This document shows, in pieces, positions 3,175 through 13,204 of a DNA stretch of 48,396 nt (position 1 is the first letter of the stretch; the number at the start of each line of letters is the position of its first letter). Under the pieces are notes generated by a model. That model saw only the letters and a list, made by a program, of their open reading frames with translations. It had not been told where the DNA came from and searched no databases. The stretch covers positions 404 through 48,799 of the forward strand of contig MNWN01000039.1 in the NCBI GenBank assembly GCA_001872545.1, in the 5' to 3' direction. Made by a program: the position numbers and the translations under genes. This stretch comes from Parcubacteria group bacterium CG1_02_58_44. GTDB taxonomy: Bacteria; Patescibacteriota; Patescibacteriia; SG8-24.

Positions 3175-4575
3175 TCATGCTTTCGCTTTGGTGACGGCAG
3201 CAAGCGCTTCAGCGATCGTATGTACGTCGCGGATTTCGATGTCGCCTTTCAGTCTGACCGAGGTCTTGTTGCGTGGCAGGGGAGCGACTGCGGTCCTGAT
3301 ACCTAGTCGAGCAGCTTCAGAGAGTCGTCGGTCGGTGGCCGGAACGGGCCGGATCTCGCCGCCCAGTCCGACCTCGCCCCAGACCGCCAGATCGCCGAGT
3401 GGCCGGTTGCCGTGAGCCGAGGCCAGGGCCAAGAGCACGGCCAGATCGACCGATGGATCCTTGATCTTCAGTCCGCCGACCACGTTCACGAAGACGTCAT
3501 GCTGTCCCAGGTCCAGTCCGCCGCGCGCCGCCAACACTGCGATCAGCATTTCGAGCCGTGATTGGTCGAATCCGGTGGCGCGCCGCGTCGGATAGCCGAA
3601 CGAGGTCGGCTGCACCAGGGCCTGGATGTCCACCAGCACCGGCCGCGTCCCTTCGAGTACGCACGAGATGACATCGCCGGGCGTTCCGCCGTTCCGTTCC
3701 TCGAGCATATAGGCGGACGGGTTGGTGATCTCCTTCAGTCCTTCGCCGGTCATCTCGAAGATTCCGGTCTCGTCGGTAGATCCGAAGCGGTTCTTGAGTA
3801 CGCGAAGTATGCGCAGCTGTCCGGTCCGCTCGCCCTCGAATGACAGTACGGCGTCAACTAGATGCTCGAGTGTTTTTGGTCCGGCCACGTTGCCGTCCTT
3901 GGTCACGTGACCGACCAGGATCAGCGGTACGCCGGTTCGCTTGGCGAACTCGACCAGCTTGGCCGTGGCGCCGCGGATGGTGCTGACCGCACCGGCCTCG
4001 GCCGGGATTTCGGACGAGCGCAGCATCTGTACCGAGTCGATCACCGCCAGAGCCGGACGCTCATGGTCCAGCGTGGCGACGATCGTCTCGACCTCGGTCT
4101 CGCCCAGGAACAGTATTTCGTCCGCACTGTCGCCGATTCGTCCGGCACGTGACTTGATCTGGGCGGCCGACTCCTCGCCCGAGGCATAGACGACCTTACC
4201 CCGTGTCGACACGTGCGCCGCTATCTGCAGGCAAATGGTGGATTTGCCGATGCCCGGCTCGCCGCCGACCAGAGTGACCGATCCCGGGACGATGCCACCG
4301 CCGAACACGCGGTCGAGCTCGCCGATGCCGATGGGGGAACGGGCCGAGTCCTCGGTGCGGATGTCGCCGAAGCGTTCGGGCTTGGCCGGCGGGACTCCAG
4401 GACGTTTGGATGCCTGACCGGGCAGCCGTACCGAACTGCCGGAACCGGAACCCGACGTGGACGTCGCTCCGATCGCCACGGTGCCCCAGGCGCCGCATTC
4501 CAGGCATTGGCCGGTCCATTTGGGGCTCTGGGCGTCGCACTTGGTGCAGGTGTAGATCGTGGTGGCGGTTTTCAT
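3175..4575 (-). CDS. radA: DNA repair protein RadA
   Basis: N-terminal zinc finger CTKCDAQSPKWTGQCLECGAW, Walker A GGEPGIGKST, KNRFGSTDE motif, C-terminal Lon-like domain. Confidence 0.95.
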   Translation of the reverse strand: MKTATTIYTCTKCDAQSPKWTGQCLECGAWGTVAIGATSTSGSGSGSSVRLPGQASKRPGVPPAKPERFGDIRTEDSARSPIGIGELDRVFGGGIVPGSVTLVGGEPGIGKSTICLQIAAHVSTRGKVVYASGEESAAQIKSRAGRIGDSADEILFLGETEVETIVATLDHERPALAVIDSVQMLRSSEIPAEAGAVSTIRGATAKLVEFAKRTGVPLILVGHVTKDGNVAGPKTLEHLVDAVLSFEGERTGQLRILRVLKNRFGSTDETGIFEMTGEGLKEITNPSAYMLEERNGGTPGDVISCVLEGTRPVLVDIQALVQPTSFGYPTRRATGFDQSRLEMLIAVLAARGGLDLGQHDVFVNVVGGLKIKDPSVDLAVLLALASAHGNRPLGDLAVWGEVGLGGEIRPVPATDRRLSEAARLGIRTAVAPLPRNKTSVRLKGDIEIRDVHTIAEALAAVTKAKA

Positions 4576-4661: not shown

Positions 4662-6143
4662 TTAGAGACATTCATTTCGGTGAGTCTGGCAGTATCCTTC
4701 CAGGCCAGAGACGACCATCGGTCGTCCGTCGCAGGTAAAGCGACAGGGATTCGGTCCGCGGGTCATCACTCCTGTAGGACATAGCCGGCCGTAGTCTATT
4801 ACTTTATGTCTGACCGACTCATCTGAGATACAGCGTGAACTGGAGAAGGGAGTGTAGGCTCCTGGCGAAAATCCAGTTGAGACCGTTCTGGTGGTGCTGG
4901 TGTCCGGATGCTCGAAGTGCCAGTATTCCGTGTTTAATCGTCCCCAACCAGCCTGCTTCATTGCTCGTTCGAGCTGCACTTGGCATTGAATATCTGAGTC
5001 GTTGAAGCGACCGACTCTTTCGGTCTGGCACCAGATGTCGCAGGCCAATGCGCTGGCATGCCCACCTCCGGTGGCAACCGCCAACGAGTTCAAATGCTCA
5101 TAGAGAGCGCGGCCTATCGGTCCCCATTCGCCGACACGTGCAGAACGCGTTTCGACGGTTATCTCTCTCAGTGTTAGATTTTGGAAACGTTGGTCGGCTG
5201 GGACCATACGACCCTGGACGCGGATGACGGCGCCGTTTCTGGTCAGTCCAACGCTGCCGGTCGGTATTGTACAAGAGGTCCGGTAAAGACAACGTTTGAT
5301 GTACATTCCTACAGTCGTAGCCGGTGATCGCCAGCATTGTCCTCGGATGGTCCAGGAGGCGTTTGATCGCAGGGAGACAAAGTTTGCCGCGGCAGCTTCT
5401 AGGTGGGAAACGATAGCCGGATTTACCAGCGAGATGGCCATACCATTACGTCTGACATCGACCAGATCACTAGGAGGTGTCGGCACCTGTAGGTTGCTGG
5501 GTAGTCTGGATACCAGATCAGGATCGGGGTCTTCGTGTGGAGTGTTCGGAACAACAAAGGGGTCAGCTACTACCGTTTCTATTCTTAATGCTCTGAGGCT
5601 AACTAGTTCCGGATTGACGGTGTAAAGCAGCAGGTAACTGCCCAAGATGAGTGCCAGACCTACGGCCGCACCCGTGATGCGCTTCTTGGCCGCGCCGACC
5701 TTTCCGGAGTCGCCGGCTGAGGTCAGCCACTGCAGTCCACCGATCATCATCATGACCACGGCCAGCACGGCCGCGACCGGGATGGCGTAGCGGAACAGGC
5801 CGGAGATGTAGTCGGCCAGCCAGAGGATGTCGATTGTTCGATTGCCGTTTTCGTCGTGAATGACGACGTCAGTTAGCCGTATGGTCGGAATGTCGATCGA
5901 TAGAGGTGGGCTTACGGGAATTTCCGGGGCTCTTTCGTTTCCGGCAGGTGCAATCTCGTTTTCCACACAGGTGACCTGTCCGCCCTCGGTCAGGCGTCGG
6001 CAGGTTCCGCCCTGCTCCTGTGCTGTCCGGTCCGCAGGCCTGATCGACACAGTCGCTGCCGTCGGCCGCTCCGGACTCGCAGCAGGCGGCGTGCGGCAGG
6101 ATCGTACAGCAGGAGCCGTTGTAGCCGGCGGCGATGGTCGCAT
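4662..6143 (-). CDS. T4SS-pilin-like two-TM module fused to an M15/VanY-like peptidase domain; N-terminus apparently frameshifted
   Basis: Hydrophobic module WLADYISGLFRYAIPVAAVLAVVMMMIGGLQWLTSAGDSGKVGAAKKRITGAAVGLALILGSYLLLYTVNP; C-terminal GGGHASALACDI and NTEYWHFEHP resemble M15 zinc-ligand motifs (SxHxxGxAxD, ExWHF). Confidence 0.7.
   Translation of the reverse strand: MRPSPPATTAPAVRSCRTPPAASPERPTAATVSIRPADRTAQEQGGTCRRLTEGGQVTCVENEIAPAGNERAPEIPVSPPLSIDIPTIRLTDVVIHDENGNRTIDILWLADYISGLFRYAIPVAAVLAVVMMMIGGLQWLTSAGDSGKVGAAKKRITGAAVGLALILGSYLLLYTVNPELVSLRALRIETVVADPFVVPNTPHEDPDPDLVSRLPSNLQVPTPPSDLVDVRRNGMAISLVNPAIVSHLEAAAANFVSLRSNASWTIRGQCWRSPATTVGMYIKRCLYRTSCTIPTGSVGLTRNGAVIRVQGRMVPADQRFQNLTLREITVETRSARVGEWGPIGRALYEHLNSLAVATGGGHASALACDIWCQTERVGRFNDSDIQCQVQLERAMKQAGWGRLNTEYWHFEHPDTSTTRTVSTGFSPGAYTPFSSSRCISDESVRHKVIDYGRLCPTGVMTRGPNPCRFTCDGRPMVVSGLEGYCQTHRNECL
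5675..5823. repeat. Diverged direct repeat (copy 1) encoding the pilin-like TM module
   Basis: Near-identical DNA to 7281-7428, e.g. gcgaccgggatggcgtagcggaacaggccggagatgtagtcggccagcc in both. Confidence 0.85.
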
Positions 6144-6243
6144 CGGCGACAGGTGTCAGTCCGAACAGCAGCATGACCGTCGCCAGACAGACGGCAAGTG
6201 TCGTACGGCGGACGTTCTTCGTGGTGCGGATGACGTTGGACAT
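6040..6243 (-). other. Out-of-frame N-terminal portion (signal peptide plus Cys-rich segment) of the 4662..6143 gene
   Basis: ORF 5869..6243 encodes a signal-peptide-like start and GSCCTILPHAACCESGAADGSDCVDQACGP, matching the paralog's GSACCGGSVPLPACCPSGAGEASACIGQACGP; similarity then continues in the other frame as QEQGGTCRR. Confidence 0.65.
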
Positions 6244-6342
6244 GCGGTCTTTCAGGACGATGAGTTAATCAGGTCGTAGAATCGGTTTTTCTACGGACCA
6301 CTGAGCGAATCGAAATGTTTTGTCGATGGTCGCGCGGAGCGG

Positions 6343-7914
6343 CTATTCCCAATGGAGAATTCTGTAGACCCGGCAGGAAGATGTTCCATGCGTTCCTTGT
6401 GTGTCGTTTCCGCGGCCTGCGGCAGCGACTCTATCCACCCAGGCGAAGTAGGCGTCCTTGCTGGCATGGGCGTTGATCGCGGCCATGTTGCCTTGAATGC
6501 CTGGTATGGAGGTCCGACTGCCACGCAGTCCGCCCATCTCGATGATCTCGTACGGCAGTCCGGCCCCTCCGGTATAGGTGAACATATGTCCCTTGTTGTC
6601 GGACCGGAAGACGTCGCCGAACTTCAGGCCGCCCGGAACTCGGTTGGCCGCCTCGGCACAGGTGGCACCTTGGGCCAGGAAGTATTGGCCGCTAGTCGAG
6701 AACATCATCTGCCAGATGGCGACGTTGTATCCGCCGCAGGCGAAGAGCTGACCGGTCCAACTGACGCAGTCGCCGCACATTCGTCCGGCGGCGAAGATCT
6801 TGTCCACCATCTCGTGCTGGTAGATGGTGCGCAGGTCCTCCACGGAGGCGCTGGCCGGGAAGGCAACGGAATGCGAACCGAGATGGTTGCGTATCCAGTC
6901 CGCCGTGCCGTGATTGGTGCATCCCGTCCTGCCGGTTCTGCCTCCACGGACGTAGACCGCAGCACCCTGCCTTCCCAGACTGACCCAAGTCGACAGGACA
7001 TTCCTGAAGGCTTCCGGCGTCGCCGGCGAGCCTCTCTGGCAGACGGCCTGCAGACCTTCCCTGGTGGCAGAACCGTTGGAGGAGGTCGGGGCCGCACTGC
7101 CGGACCAGTTGAAGTCTCCACCCGACGGGGCGGTCAGGGCGTCGTCGGCACCGACATATTGGTACTCTTCCGTCACGACCGATCTGACCCGCAAGGCCGG
7201 AAGCAGCACCAAGTTGGGATTGACGGTATTGAACAGTAGGTAGCTCCCGACCAGAAGCATCAAACCGACGACCGCGCCCATGATGCGCTTCTTGGCCGCG
7301 CCGACCCTTCCGGCGTCGCCGGCCGAGGTGAGCCACTGCAGCCCGCCGATCATCATCATGACCACGGCGAGGATGGCCGCGACCGGGATGGCGTAGCGGA
7401 ACAGGCCGGAGATGTAGTCGGCCAGCCAGGGAATGTCAATCGATCTCGTCTGTCCGCTGCCGGAGATGACGGCGTCGGTGAAGCGGACAGTCGGGATGTC
7501 GATCGATAGTCGTGGGTTCGCGGGGATCTCAAGAGGCTCCTCATCTGAATCGGCGGTCGGCGCTGCCGACTGGATGCACTTGATCTCGCCGCCAGATCCG
7601 CAGCTTTGGTCTTCTCCGCCGGAAGCTGAAGTGCAGATGCGGCGGCAGGTTCCGTTCTGGTCATCGGCCGTCGGTCCGCAGGCCTGGCCGATGCAGGCCG
7701 AAGCCTCGCCGGCCCCCGAGGGGCAGCAGGCCGGCAGTGGTACCGAACCGCCGCAGCAGGCCGAACCGTAGCTTACGGATGCGTGGTCTGCGGGCGGCAC
7801 TGTGGCCCGGACGCCGGTCGGGAGCAGGGAAAGCGAAATCAGTACGGCCAGTCCGGCCGACAGGACGGTTCGTCTGATGTCGAATGAGGTGATGGTCCAA
7901 GTCCTTGAAGACAT
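6343..7914 (-). CDS. T4SS-pilin-like two-TM module fused to a putative NlpC/P60- or CHAP-like cysteine hydrolase domain
   Basis: ORF 6343..7956, likely Met 7914. Signal peptide, Cys-rich segment, TM module nearly identical to the 4662 gene, C-terminal CGDCVSWTGQLF and GHMFTYTGG suggest a Cys/His pair. Confidence 0.7.
   Translation of the reverse strand: MSSRTWTITSFDIRRTVLSAGLAVLISLSLLPTGVRATVPPADHASVSYGSACCGGSVPLPACCPSGAGEASACIGQACGPTADDQNGTCRRICTSASGGEDQSCGSGGEIKCIQSAAPTADSDEEPLEIPANPRLSIDIPTVRFTDAVISGSGQTRSIDIPWLADYISGLFRYAIPVAAILAVVMMMIGGLQWLTSAGDAGRVGAAKKRIMGAVVGLMLLVGSYLLFNTVNPNLVLLPALRVRSVVTEEYQYVGADDALTAPSGGDFNWSGSAAPTSSNGSATREGLQAVCQRGSPATPEAFRNVLSTWVSLGRQGAAVYVRGGRTGRTGCTNHGTADWIRNHLGSHSVAFPASASVEDLRTIYQHEMVDKIFAAGRMCGDCVSWTGQLFACGGYNVAIWQMMFSTSGQYFLAQGATCAEAANRVPGGLKFGDVFRSDNKGHMFTYTGGAGLPYEIIEMGGLRGSRTSIPGIQGNMAAINAHASKDAYFAWVDRVAAAGRGNDTQGTHGTSSCRVYRILHWE
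7281..7428. repeat. Diverged direct repeat (copy 2) encoding the pilin-like TM module
   Basis: See copy 1 at 5675-5823. Confidence 0.85.
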
Positions 7915-7952
7915 CTCGGTGTGGATTAAGTGCCTACATGCGAAGGCAGCCG

Positions 7953-8624
7953 TCATTGTCGAAAGCCACCTCGGGCCAGTTCCAGGTCTATCGTGGTGCG
8001 CAGTCGTTCGACGCTGACCACGCCGGACAGTCGCGTGTTGCCGACGAAAAGGTAGGGTGTGGCGTCGATACCCAGCGACAGGGCCTCGTCGACGTCGCGC
8101 CTGACCAGCGGTTCGGTCAGCCGGCCGGAGTAGCAGCTGCCGAACCTTTCCACATCCAGTCCGTCCTCTCCGGCGAACAGCAGGAAGTTAGACTCGTCGA
8201 GCGAGGTTTGGTTGGCCATCAGCAGGTCGTGGTACCGCCAGAAGTCGCCCTGCTCCCCGGCGCACCTTGCGGCCACGGCCGCGTTCATGGCATCGGGATG
8301 GATTCGGGTGTCGGGCAGGTCCTTCCAGACCAGCCGGATGCGGTCAGGGTAGGCGGTTATGGCTTCGATGAGGTTCGGCTCGACCTGGGCGCAGGCGATG
8401 CACTGGTAGTCGCCGAACACGAAGACGGAGATCTCCGCTCCGTTCGGGCCCAACGTCGGATTGCCGAAGTCGGAGCGGGGAACGAGCGACGTTTCGGTCG
8501 GACTGTCGGTCGGCTGCGGATCGGTTCTTTCGGTCCTGTCGGGCAGCGAGACTATGCCGAATATGACCAAGAGAGCCACGGCGACGACGGTGACCGTACC
8601 CAGGAAGGCGGAGGACTTGCCCAT
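7953..8624 (-). CDS. DsbA-family/thioredoxin-fold thiol oxidoreductase, membrane anchored
   Basis: N-terminal TM; VFGDYQCIACAQVEPNLIEAI (CxxC = CIAC), GIDATPYLFVGNTRLSG (cis-Pro region). Confidence 0.88.
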   Translation of the reverse strand: MGKSSAFLGTVTVVAVALLVIFGIVSLPDRTERTDPQPTDSPTETSLVPRSDFGNPTLGPNGAEISVFVFGDYQCIACAQVEPNLIEAITAYPDRIRLVWKDLPDTRIHPDAMNAAVAARCAGEQGDFWRYHDLLMANQTSLDESNFLLFAGEDGLDVERFGSCYSGRLTEPLVRRDVDEALSLGIDATPYLFVGNTRLSGVVSVERLRTTIDLELARGGFRQ

Positions 8625-8625
8625 A

Positions 8626-9840
8626 TCAGCGGAGCCGCAGCTCGTTCAGCATGCCCGAGCCGCGGTCGGTGAAGAGCAGCTTGCTGTGGTCGGCGGTCAC
8701 CATGATGCTGCCGACGGTGTGGTTGCCTTCGGGGATGGCCACTTGGGTCTGCAGGCCGGTAGTCAGGTCGATGCCGATGATGTCGTCCGGAGTCGAGTCG
8801 GCGACGGTCGGCTGCAGCCCGGCGCCGCGCGGCAGGTCGCGCGGTACCGCGCAGTACAGCATGTTCGTTCCGGCGAAGGTGCACTTGTCGGACCAGGTAT
8901 TGACGTTGAGCATGCGGCGATTGAGGCCGATGTCGTCGCCGGAGGCGTCGACTATCCATAGCTGCGGCTTGTAGTCGGAAAGGGAACCGGCTACGGAGTA
9001 GAGCAGCCGTTCGCCGTCCGGTGCCCAAGACGGGCGGAAGTCCAGGCCGTCCACCATGATGGAGCGGAAGTTCTCGTGGTTCTGGCCCAGGAAGAAGACC
9101 TCCTGTCCGTCGACTCCGCGCTTGTCGCCGGTGGTGGCCGTGGCTACGATCTGGTTGTTGGGGGACCAGGCGACCTGCACCTTGTCGGCGTTGTTGCCGA
9201 GCTCCTGGATCGGGCGGGCATTGGAGCCGTCCGGACTGGAGATGATCAGGAACCGGTTCGCCGGATCGAGGCCGATGCTCTTGGCCACTATGCTGCTTCC
9301 CTGCGGACTGAAGTCGAAGTCCTGCCAATGCTTGGGCAGCGTCACCTGTTTGTCGGAGTTGAAGTCGTAGAAGATGTTGGAACCGTCCGGATATTCGATG
9401 ATGGCCGTGTCTCCCTTGGGCGAGAAGCTGGCCTGTTCCACGTTGAAGAAGGTCTTGCCCGAGAGCTGCTGGATAGTGCCGTCGGACAGCACCCGATAGA
9501 ACTTGCCGTCGTTGCGGTTGTAGTAGTTGAGGTCGCCCAAGCTTGTCAGCATGGCGCCGGACGTCGGCACCGGGGCTATGGTGGTCACTTTGGTCAGTCC
9601 GCCGGACGCCACCGGCGAGACTTGTGCGTTCGGCAGGCCGGTTTCCGTGCCGGTCGGCGTTCCGGTCGGCGTTCCTGGTTGGGCCGACGGCAGCCCGCCG
9701 GGTGCGACATTGACGAGGTCTTCGCCTCCGGGCGGAATCTCGGCCGGAGACAGCGGACCGAATACGATTCGGTAGAGTGCGAAGCCGATTCCGACGGTCA
9801 CGGCCAGGAACAGCAGGACGAGTCCTATTTTCTTGATCAT
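8626..9840 (-). CDS. Membrane-anchored TolB/PD40-like beta-propeller protein
   Basis: N-terminal TM; repeated blades such as FSPKGDTAIIEYPDGSN, WSPNNQIVATATTGD, WAPDGERLLYSVAG. Confidence 0.7.
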   Translation of the reverse strand: MIKKIGLVLLFLAVTVGIGFALYRIVFGPLSPAEIPPGGEDLVNVAPGGLPSAQPGTPTGTPTGTETGLPNAQVSPVASGGLTKVTTIAPVPTSGAMLTSLGDLNYYNRNDGKFYRVLSDGTIQQLSGKTFFNVEQASFSPKGDTAIIEYPDGSNIFYDFNSDKQVTLPKHWQDFDFSPQGSSIVAKSIGLDPANRFLIISSPDGSNARPIQELGNNADKVQVAWSPNNQIVATATTGDKRGVDGQEVFFLGQNHENFRSIMVDGLDFRPSWAPDGERLLYSVAGSLSDYKPQLWIVDASGDDIGLNRRMLNVNTWSDKCTFAGTNMLYCAVPRDLPRGAGLQPTVADSTPDDIIGIDLTTGLQTQVAIPEGNHTVGSIMVTADHSKLLFTDRGSGMLNELRLR

Positions 9841-9975: not shown

Positions 9976-10620
9976 TCAGCTTGAGGCCGCCTCGCCGATC
10001 ACGCCCACGACCAATCCGATCAGCAGTAAGATCAGGATCAGCACCGCCAGGTAGAGCATCGACAGTACGATCAGCCCCAGCCACTCGAAGGCGTTGAAGG
10101 TGCGCAGCCATTTGATCTTGAGCCAGTGGGCGCCGGTGACCCAGATCCAGCACAGCAGTAGGCAGCAGGGGACCGTGAAGAACGGATCCTCGCAAAGCAC
10201 CGAGTAGGCGGTGAAGAGCAGCAGCCAAGGTCCATACTTGTTGGCGATGCCCCAGAGCGATTTGGCCGTCCCCATAACGCCTTCATTGGCGAAATTTTGG
10301 GCGACTTTGCTCGCCTCGTCGGCCGCCATTTTGCCGATGCCGACACCTGAAGCGATTTTGGCGGCCGCTCGGGCTGTCTCAATCGAGGAGGGGCCTTCTC
10401 TCACCGCGGCGGCGGCGTCGCCGGCCTTGCTGTCGGGCATTGGCCGGTAGCTCGAACCGGCGGATTTCATCGCGCCAGAATCGAAAGTCGAAGCCGCGGC
10501 CGTCGCTCCCGGACCCGGCAGGTTGAGTCCGCCGGACAGCGAAGAGCCCAGCCGTCCTCGTTCCAGACGGCGGGCCCAGTTCTGTTCCTGCGATGGATTT
10601 TGGTCGTTAGGCTTTGGCAT
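9976..10620 (-). CDS. hypothetical membrane protein
   Basis: ORF 9976..10743; likely Met at 10620 (MPKPNDQNPSQEQ), overlapping the clpC 3' end; C-terminal hydrophobic helices. Confidence 0.7.
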   Translation of the reverse strand: MPKPNDQNPSQEQNWARRLERGRLGSSLSGGLNLPGPGATAAASTFDSGAMKSAGSSYRPMPDSKAGDAAAAVREGPSSIETARAAAKIASGVGIGKMAADEASKVAQNFANEGVMGTAKSLWGIANKYGPWLLLFTAYSVLCEDPFFTVPCCLLLCWIWVTGAHWLKIKWLRTFNAFEWLGLIVLSMLYLAVLILILLLIGLVVGVIGEAASS

Positions 10621-13204
10621 CGGCTTTGACTTTCTTCTTGCTGACCGTCTTGGTCGTCGCCGGCTTCTTGGCCGCCGTGTTCCGGCGCAGTTTCCTGACC
10701 ACGACCTTCTGTCCGTCGGACTCCAGCCGCAGGCTGTCGCCACGACCGAAGTCGTCCGAGAGCACTCCCTTGGCCAGTGGACTTTCTACCAGTTCCTGTA
10801 TCTGCCGGCGGACCGGCCGGGCGCCGTAGAGCGGGTTGTAGCTGCGTTCGGCCAGCAGGTCGAGTGCCTGTTCGTCGGCCGCGAGCTTCAGTCCGTAATC
10901 GGCCGACAGACGTTCGGACAGCTCGCCGATCTGCAGGGCGACGATTTTTTTCAGGTCAGGCTGCGACAGCGGCCGGAACATCACCACCCGGTCGATGCGG
11001 TTCAGGAATTCGGGCCGGAAGGAACGCTCCAGCTCGCCGGTGATGGCCGCCCGCGTCTCGTCGACGTCTGGTTCGCCTGCCTTCTCGCCGGAGGAGAAGC
11101 CGATGCTGCCGCCGCTCTTCATTTCGCCGGCGCCGACGTTAGAGGTCATGACGATGATCGTGTTCTTGAAGTTGATCTTGCGTCCGGTCGCATCGGTGAT
11201 GTGCCCGTCCTCGAGGATCTGCAGCAGCAGGTTGTGCACGTCGGGGTGGGCCTTCTCGATCTCGTCGAACAGGACCAGCGAGTGCGGCTTGCGTTTGACC
11301 ATGTCCGTCAGCTTAGTGCTTTCGCGGTAGCCGACGTAGCCCGCCGGCGCGCCGATCAGCTTGGACATGTTGAAGCCTTCGGAGAACTCGGACATGTCGA
11401 TGCGAACCAGCGCATCGGGGTCGTGGAGCACCTCCTCGGCCAGCAGCTTGGTCAGCTCGGTCTTGCCCACGCCGGACGGTCCGAGGAACATGAAGGAGGC
11501 GAGCGGGCGGTCTGGGTTGGCCATGCCGGCCTTGGCGCGGCGGATCATCTCGGCCACGGCCGCGACGGCGTCTTCCTGACCGACGATGCGCCGGCCGAGC
11601 CTGTCTTCCAGTCCGAGCAGGCGGGCCTTCTCCTCGGTCAGCATGTCGTGCAGGGGAACGCCGGTGGCCTGCGAGACGATCTCGGCGATGTCCTTGCGGC
11701 CGATCTTGACCGTCGGCTTTTTTGACTTGGATTTGGTGCCGGAAACGAGCTTCTTGAGCTCTTGAGCCAATTTTTCCTCTTCACCTTTCAGCTTTAGTGC
11801 CTCGATGAAGTTCTCGCCCTGCACTGCTTTGTCCTTGCGCTGCCGGACCTTCTCCAGCTCGCTTTCGACCCGGACGGCCTTGAGCCGGATCGAGTTGCCT
11901 CCCTGCGAGACGTGCGCGCGGGCGGCAGCCTCGTCGATCAGGTCAATTGCCTTGTCCGGCAGGAAACGGTCGGTCAGGTATCGTTCCGACAGCTCGACGG
12001 ACGCGTCGATGGCCTCGTCGGTGATGGTCACGTCATGGTGCTTCTCGTAGCGGCTGCGCAGTCCGCGCAGGATCTGCCCGGTCGCGTCGACTGACGGCTG
12101 GTCCACGGAGATCGCCTGGAAGCGCCGCTCCAGCGCGCCGTCGCTCTCGATGTGCTTCTTGTATTCGGCGATGGTAGTGGCTCCGATGCAGCGCATCTGT
12201 CCGCGGGCCAGTGCCGGCTTGAGCAGGTTGGCGGCGTCCATCGAGCCGTTGGTCGATCCGGCCCCCATGATGTTGTGCAGCTCGTCGATGAACAGGATCA
12301 GGTCCGGATTGGCCTTCATTTCCTCGGTCATCTGCTTGATGCGGCCCTCGAACTCGCCGCGGTAGATCGTGCCGGCGACCATCAGCCCCAGGTCCAGGGA
12401 TAGGATGCGCTTGTTGGCCAGCAGCTCCGGTACGTCTCCTTCGACGATTTTCTTGGCCAGTCCCTCGATGATGGCGGTCTTGCCTATGCCTGGTTCGCCC
12501 AGGAGCACCGGATTGTTCTTGTTGCGGCGGCAGAGCACCTGGATCATCCGCTCTATCTCCTGGTCGCGGCCGATGACCGGGTCGATGCCGCGCTGTACCT
12601 CCGGGTCGGTCAGGTCGACGGTGAAGAACTCGAGGGCCGGCGTCTTCGGTTCCTGCGTCTCCAGGCCGACCGTTACCTGATTCTCCTTCGTCTTGATTTC
12701 GCGCGTCGGAGCCTTGCCCGACTCGAACGTCTCCGTGATCTCGGGGAAGCGTGAAGTGCTGTTCAGCGTAGTGCTGACCTGGCCGAGCAGTGCCGACTGG
12801 TCGATGTCCTGATCGGAAAGGATGGCACAGATAACCGGAGAGCTGATCTCGAGCAGACCGAAGAGCAGATGTTCGGTGCCGACGTAGCGGTGCTGGTTGG
12901 AGTTGGCGGTCATGACGGCCTTCTCAACGGCCCGCTTGGCCTCGGCCGACAGGCGGGGAGAGGCGACCGGCCCGTCGGACGGCGTGAACTGATTGACTGC
13001 GACAAGCATTTGGCGCAGCTCCTCCGTGTTCAGTTCGTTCTGCCGGAGGATTTCTCCGCCCATGCTGCCGCGCTGCAGTACCATGGCTAGGAGCAGGTGC
13101 TCGGGATGGATGTTGGCCGACGACATTTCGGTGGCCAGAGAGTGGGATTTGGCTAGGGTGTTCTTGAGGTGGACCGTGAACTTGTTGAGTATTTCGGTGT
13201 TCAT
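10607..13204 (-). CDS. clpC: ClpC/ClpB-type AAA+ unfoldase
   Basis: ORF 10607..13225, likely Met 13204. Clp N domain, two Walker A motifs (GEPGIGKTAI, GPSGVGKTEL), HNIMGAG, YVGYRESTKLTD. Confidence 0.93.
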   Translation of the reverse strand: MNTEILNKFTVHLKNTLAKSHSLATEMSSANIHPEHLLLAMVLQRGSMGGEILRQNELNTEELRQMLVAVNQFTPSDGPVASPRLSAEAKRAVEKAVMTANSNQHRYVGTEHLLFGLLEISSPVICAILSDQDIDQSALLGQVSTTLNSTSRFPEITETFESGKAPTREIKTKENQVTVGLETQEPKTPALEFFTVDLTDPEVQRGIDPVIGRDQEIERMIQVLCRRNKNNPVLLGEPGIGKTAIIEGLAKKIVEGDVPELLANKRILSLDLGLMVAGTIYRGEFEGRIKQMTEEMKANPDLILFIDELHNIMGAGSTNGSMDAANLLKPALARGQMRCIGATTIAEYKKHIESDGALERRFQAISVDQPSVDATGQILRGLRSRYEKHHDVTITDEAIDASVELSERYLTDRFLPDKAIDLIDEAAARAHVSQGGNSIRLKAVRVESELEKVRQRKDKAVQGENFIEALKLKGEEEKLAQELKKLVSGTKSKSKKPTVKIGRKDIAEIVSQATGVPLHDMLTEEKARLLGLEDRLGRRIVGQEDAVAAVAEMIRRAKAGMANPDRPLASFMFLGPSGVGKTELTKLLAEEVLHDPDALVRIDMSEFSEGFNMSKLIGAPAGYVGYRESTKLTDMVKRKPHSLVLFDEIEKAHPDVHNLLLQILEDGHITDATGRKINFKNTIIVMTSNVGAGEMKSGGSIGFSSGEKAGEPDVDETRAAITGELERSFRPEFLNRIDRVVMFRPLSQPDLKKIVALQIGELSERLSADYGLKLAADEQALDLLAERSYNPLYGARPVRRQIQELVESPLAKGVLSDDFGRGDSLRLESDGQKVVVRKLRRNTAAKKPATTKTVSKKKVKADAKA

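Follow-up and report, generated by a model that had tools for sequence, protein, structure and literature searches.

Why do two adjacent genes encode nearly the same membrane module and then end in entirely different domains? This question is raised by genes A and B (Table 1), located in a stretch of 48,396 nucleotides (nt) from Parcubacteria group bacterium CG1_02_58_44 (contig MNWN01000039.1, positions 404 to 48,799), referred to here as the window. The corresponding genome is a 1.06 Mb draft with 95% completeness, which we take to belong to the Uhrbacteria, class ABY1 in GTDB; Candidatus Uhrbacteria bacterium RIFOXYC2_FULL_47_19 represents the same genus and served as sister genome (G001). 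The analysis indicates that A and B probably represent the wall-opening (VirB1/PrgK-like) peptidoglycan-hydrolase components of a Patescibacteria type IV secretion system (T4SS).

A preliminary description of the locus had noted an almost identical module with two transmembrane (TM) helices and the look of the T4SS pilin family in both genes, and this was borne out. The modules of A and B share 76% identity across 110 residues, including an identical run of 55 nt at the DNA level, and with 29.7 and 28.2 bits both exceed the curated cut-off of 26.6 bits for T4SS_pilin (PF18895). Gene A consecutively encodes a signal peptide, ten Cys residues, a TM helix, a basic loop, a second TM helix, and a 280-residue domain; the hydrophobic segments span residues 181-213 and 223-246 with a Lys/Arg-rich loop in between, and the true start may be the second in-frame ATG near position 7911. 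The Cys-rich N-terminal segment was found in both genes as described. Two TM helices separated by a short basic loop and preceded by a signal peptide correspond to the layout of T4SS_pilin proteins, with the signal peptide of gene B being off-frame. C-terminal of the module A and B have nothing alike, in accordance with the complete divergence stated initially; the 280-305 residues trailing the module distinguish both from a small VirB2 pilin, which stops right after helix two. Based on the cleaved signal and the positively charged inter-helix loop, an extracellular location is expected for the C-terminal domain. In the sister genome both genes are present in identical order with ~83% (A) and 81% (B) identity, and comparison of the C-termini revealed purifying selection, which was strong in A (ratio of nonsynonymous to synonymous substitution rates, dN/dS, 0.036) and clear in B (0.125). 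Thus, the pair is not the product of chance.

Table 1. Positions of genes A and B, their parts, and neighboring genes in the window.
Feature	Positions	Strand	Remarks
Gene A	6343-7956	minus	537 aa; signal peptide, Cys-rich segment, T4SS_pilin two-TM module, NlpC/P60-like C-terminal domain
Cys-rich segment of gene A	7576-7758	minus	residues 67-127, 10 Cys
T4SS_pilin module of gene A	7186-7515	minus	residues 148-257; exceeds PF18895 cut-off (E 2e-6)
C-terminal NlpC/P60-like domain of gene A	6346-7185	minus	putative triad C397, H457, E473
Gene B as evolved	4662-6240	minus	signal peptide, frameshift near 6028, Cys-rich segment, T4SS_pilin module, M15-like domain
T4SS_pilin module of gene B	5580-5909	minus	exceeds PF18895 cut-off (E 6.6e-7)
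C-terminal M15-like metallopeptidase domain of gene B	4665-5579	minus	putative Zn ligands H362, D369, H409; base E406
One extra base in gene B	~6028	minus	from alignment with the sister genome
DsbA-like membrane-anchored thiol oxidoreductase	7953-8624	minus	CxxC at 75-78; PF13462 E 4.7e-18, PF01323 E 3.6e-11
Membrane-anchored beta-propeller-like protein	8626-9840	minus	N-terminal TM; PD40 in ortholog E 6e-7
Membrane protein	9976-10743	minus	no Pfam match; in relatives, other membrane proteins (clusters c11/c14) take this place
RadA	3175-4575	minus	downstream marker of conserved operon
RecG	217-2385	plus	marker of conserved locus

The motifs from which an M15/VanY-like domain had been proposed for B and an NlpC/P60- or CHAP-like domain for A were located as claimed (GHASALACDI at residues 361-370 and EYWHFEH at 406-412 of B; CGDCVSW at 394-400 and GHMFTY at 456-461 of A), and both assignments gained support. 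For gene B, H362, D369, E406, H409, and Arg272 are invariant in 11 related C-termini, and the profile of these 11 matches the structures of VanX (1r44, E 4e-10) and of VanY- and VanXY-type enzymes; other C-termini of the set reach the Pfam M15 family with E 6e-11. A search of PDB with the sequence of gene B alone returned nothing useful, and hits in NCBIfam were limited to weak M15 matches and a mycoplasma pilin below threshold. The H-x6-D and E-x-W-H-x-E motifs and the conserved Arg are shared with Peptidase M15 members (VanX/VanY), from which B differs by its fusion to a pilin module and by long extra Cys-rich parts. Together, these data support a predicted M15 peptidase-like domain at the C-terminus of gene B.

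In gene A, Asp396-Cys397, His457, and Glu473 are invariant in eight relatives. The profile of the A-domain aligned with an NLPC_P60 cluster in hhalign at a probability of 81% (E 1.2e-5), while two decoy comparisons gave 0.03% and 0.1%. The target cluster has two members of the same architecture with a clear NlpC/P60 motif, and its own profile finds NlpC/P60 hydrolases in PDB. In an AlphaFold2 model of low confidence, Cys397 would be placed at a helix start and His457 and Glu473 on the two next strands, resembling the Asp-Cys, Gly-His, and Glu arrangement of NlpC/P60 and CHAP cysteine peptidases/amidases. Unlike these, the domain has Glu as third residue and is too divergent for recognition by Pfam and NCBIfam; a profile sequence search in PDB gave no match. 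The residue pattern and the profile alignment support a divergent NlpC/P60-like domain at the C-terminus of gene A.

A group of C-termini with the motif GSCG...HAVIFMGW (cluster 3) was considered as kin of the A-domain and rejected (hhalign probability 2%). Its members (L086, L089, L102, L108, L111, L130) share conserved SCG... and GD...HA.IFMGW segments and are papain-like by motif; the domain had no match in PDB, and none in Pfam for the one member tested.

In this assembly, the intact open reading frame (ORF) of gene B spans 4662-6143 on the minus strand (493 aa), and its signal peptide and first Cys residues are encoded in a separate frame (ORF 5869-6243). The shared secretion signal of the preliminary description therefore holds for gene B as evolved but not for its open frame. 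In the sister genome, gene B is a single open frame of 519 aa; the extra base detected by alignment may be either a real frameshift or an assembly error. Such a one-base shift would fit a decaying gene B with only A being functional, or, as exemplified by the non-hydrolytic LytM and CHAP domains of PrgK (PMC11323569), both C-terminal domains could be inactive regulators or binders. These explanations are highly improbable, considering that the catalytic residues are invariant across relatives, that B is intact in the sister genome, and that a single extra base may be an error in a draft assembly. The dN/dS value of gene B compares lineages rather than the time since the frameshift and says nothing on decay.

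Gene A has matches in 143 of 144 relatives, mainly via the module, which was present in 271 of the 287 genomes surveyed across the phylum. From 60 fetched loci together with those of the own genome (62 loci), 88 C-termini of at least 120 residues were obtained. Pfam analysis (E≤0.01; the counts overlap in part) identified M15 (11), SLT (10), VanY (7), M23 (5), Amidase_2 (4), C39 (4), M15_4 (3), SGNH (3), glucosaminidase (2), NlpC/P60 (2), and one each of GH18, phage lysozyme, and 3D. Wall-hydrolase families are matched by about half of the 88 C-termini. Within the window's own family, the slot is occupied by NlpC-like plus M15 (sister genome), SLT (G002), M23 (G004), or glucosaminidase plus M15_4 (G005). 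Adjacent fusion genes occur at ~18 loci. Some pairs join a glycan cutter with a peptide cutter (L087, L101, L119), the combinations being glucosaminidase with M15_4, SLT with M15_4, and SLT with M15; such pairs resemble the multi-domain PrgK (SLT, CHAP, LytM; PMC11323569). At L126:1551-9200, four tandem fusion genes form one operon; two of their C-termini are NlpC-like and one is C39-like, with the fourth being unassigned.

The relation between module and enzyme was analyzed on a tree of 100 modules with eight enzyme labels, which was based on few alignment columns. The labels required 34 changes versus a mean of 36.8 after shuffling, with 17 of 200 shuffles being as low; inheritance of the enzyme type with the module was rejected as weak on this basis. 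Strongly supported branches by themselves force several changes for most labels. These comparisons of predicted domains show that the enzyme part is freely exchanged between species on a conserved base. The common pilin-like base with interchangeable wall-cutting enzymes envisaged in the preliminary description is supported, well beyond the window, by the many unrelated hydrolase families, their occurrence mostly in one syntenic slot, and an enzyme type nearly uncoupled from the module tree. The modules of A and B and their sister orthologs form one group (support 98). Within the two genomes, A and B differ by a synonymous divergence of 0.75 and 0.90, compared with 0.99 for B and saturation for A between orthologs; this divergence is thus no larger within the pair than between orthologs, although the A and B proteins are less alike. 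This pattern hints at gene conversion between the two modules, and base-composition shifts could contribute.

The swapping of families between close relatives would also be predicted if enzyme type were tuned to a host, with a pilin-based pilus or surface complex presenting cutters to a prey or host wall for penetration or feeding. The Patescibacteria are tiny, parasite-like bacteria; cultivated members are epibionts that cannot grow on the host without their T4SS and pilin array (PMC10633639, PMC12857230), and the module also occurs on large surface proteins with Ig/TIG domains. Against action on the host, there is no sign in these data of display past the own wall, many T4SSs need hydrolases just for crossing their own wall, and the organism has no known host. 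We consider such a function unlikely, and likewise the more specific idea that some T4SS pilin subunits carry exchangeable enzymes perforating the host wall, with the enzyme set of the operon helping to set a species' host range. The data do not separate own-wall from host-wall cutting.

A connection of the fusions to T4SSs was indicated by VirB4, which was encoded within the fetched stretch in 6 of the 60 class loci versus 0.67 expected by chance (P 7e-5, phylogeny ignored); its identity was assigned by a TraG P-loop match (E 1.5e-28 in one member). In five of the six loci it was co-oriented with the fusions and with the gene for the beta-propeller-like protein. Among 20 loci from other classes, which were picked on strong module match and frame length regardless of neighbors, VirB4 was present in nine, typically in the order VirB4, another gene, fusion, propeller. 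The fusions beside VirB4 in other classes contain NlpC/P60, SLT_2, and SLT_3 domains, and M15-like motifs were seen by eye in fusions of other classes.

At the 62 loci, the conserved series comprises ClpC, a membrane protein, the propeller (47 loci), DsbA (31, plus the window), one or two fusions, RadA (40), and RecG (39); in the window, the DsbA-like gene overlaps gene A by 4 nt. A T4SS survey of Patescibacteria from 2025 took the same Pfam family as VirB2, found VirB1 mostly missing with replacement by other enzymes being possible, and reported comF, recG, and radA as common in ABY1 T4SS loci (PMC12102498). Here too, recG and radA flank A and B. The main text of the survey is silent on enzyme-bearing pilins, the propeller, and DsbA (PMC12102498). 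No SLT domain was detected in A, B, or the whole own genome, nor in 58 of 95 relatives.

Alternatively, the module could be a mere two-helix membrane anchor for enzymes of ordinary wall growth or division, unrelated to a T4SS. The housekeeping neighbors in the window (RadA, RecG, ClpC, HtpX), the location of VirB4 on another contig, and the near-universal presence of the module would suit such a role. It is nevertheless unlikely, given the adjacency of VirB4 at six class loci and nine loci of other classes, the four other M23 peptidases of the genome that could cover housekeeping, and a change of family between close relatives not expected of a housekeeping wall enzyme.

For the preferred T4SS assignment, the following course of events is proposed. 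The fusion protein would be exported by Sec, and its Cys-rich part is probably oxidized by the product of the DsbA-like gene located immediately upstream. In the cytoplasmic membrane, the VirB2-like module would be folded as a two-helix hairpin; based on its kinship to the system's own pilins, it may dock at the T4SS platform or join the pilus as a minor subunit. On the outside, the C-terminal enzyme would cut the wall where the channel must pass, A acting as a Cys peptidase/amidase-like cutter and B as an M15 D,D- or L,D-peptidase-like cutter. Enzyme exchange between species plausibly matches the wall chemistry to be crossed.

A number of observations weigh against this assignment. The wall-cutting activity of A and B is a prediction from sequence. 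Gene B alone matches Pfam M15 with E 0.004-0.007 and 17.5 bits, missing the curated cut-off of 27, and it is frameshifted in this assembly. AlphaFold2 models of the C-terminal domains, built from alignments of three (A) and two (B) sequences, had mean predicted local distance difference test (pLDDT) values of 47 (A) and 36 (B), and Foldseek with the low-confidence A model gave only noise. The other half of the 88 C-termini, gene A included, is without a known hydrolase domain, being Cys-rich or too divergent; several are merely Cys-rich. The VirB4 gene of the own genome is on contig C21, away from A and B. For PrgK, in vitro activity was confined to the SLT domain, whereas LytM and CHAP were non-hydrolytic (PMC11323569).

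VirB1, PrgK, and TraG of pIP501 likewise represent wall-cutting domains (SLT, CHAP/NlpC, M23/LytM) that are encoded with a T4SS, with the enzyme outside a membrane anchor. In contrast to these, the fusions carry one enzyme per protein on a VirB2-like pilin module, their freely exchanged families include M15, amidase, C39, GH18, and lysozyme, and the own genome is without SLT. With the VirB2-like pilins of Patescibacteria (PF18895, TrbC/VirB2), they share the signal peptide, two TM helices, a short basic loop, and the Pfam family; they differ by the large domain after helix two and the Cys-rich segment before helix one. The 14 PF18895 matches of the own genome include stand-alone pilins, which unlike the fusions stop soon after the second helix. 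A literature search, which missed most subscription journals, found no description of pilin-hydrolase fusions. The parts are of known kinds; what was not found described is their construction, in which wall enzymes encoded at a conserved position are freely exchanged on a pilin base.

In the one Patescibacterium given genome-wide mutagenesis the T4SS is essential for epibiotic growth, yet a wall-opening enzyme for it has been reported as mostly missing across the phylum. The fusions offer a concrete candidate for it in nearly every genome of the class and in other classes. It becomes testable how epibionts open cell walls and whether the choice of enzyme follows the host, and the propeller protein and DsbA are candidate T4SS partners.

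The propeller accompanies the fusions across the class and occurs with VirB4 and fusions in other classes (L149, L150, L156, L158, L159, L161, L162); judged by this gene context, it is a candidate for an unrecognized T4SS component. A small one-TM protein encoded beside VirB4 (L137:8003-8656, L142:4296-4916, and orthologs; cluster 10) is conserved in its outside domain; its location and form are suggestive of a VirB8-like protein, which is reported to be rarely detected in Patescibacteria. The Pfam accession of SLT_3 adjoins that of T4SS_pilin, so curators may have met both together, which serves as a lead only.

Further module genes were observed in the own genome. On contig C7, the module forms part of two more fusions, one with a protein of 3358 aa that has Big_5, TIG, and Big_7 Ig-like domains (L019:9250-19326) and one with a protein of 748 aa that matches Big_5 (L019:6972-9218); by these domain matches, the module base also carries adhesin-like cargo. 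On the same contig, a module gene beside UvrA is immediately preceded by a second DsbA-like gene (L018:3277-6032); this module gene has a long Cys-rich C-terminus with no Pfam hydrolase match, and a similar DsbA-fusion-UvrA order is found at L120 and L139. Contig C36 contains tandem stand-alone pilin genes with eight PF18895 matches beside two extracellular solute-binding-like proteins (L017:4861-8936). One transposase-like fragment is shared by the ends of contigs C15 and C21 (L020:4641-4910 and L142:2-274), where the assembly is therefore probably interrupted by an insertion element. In four genomes (L093, L109, L118, and L124), a gene whose C-terminus has a TPP-enzyme domain, as shown for L118, is located between or beside module genes.

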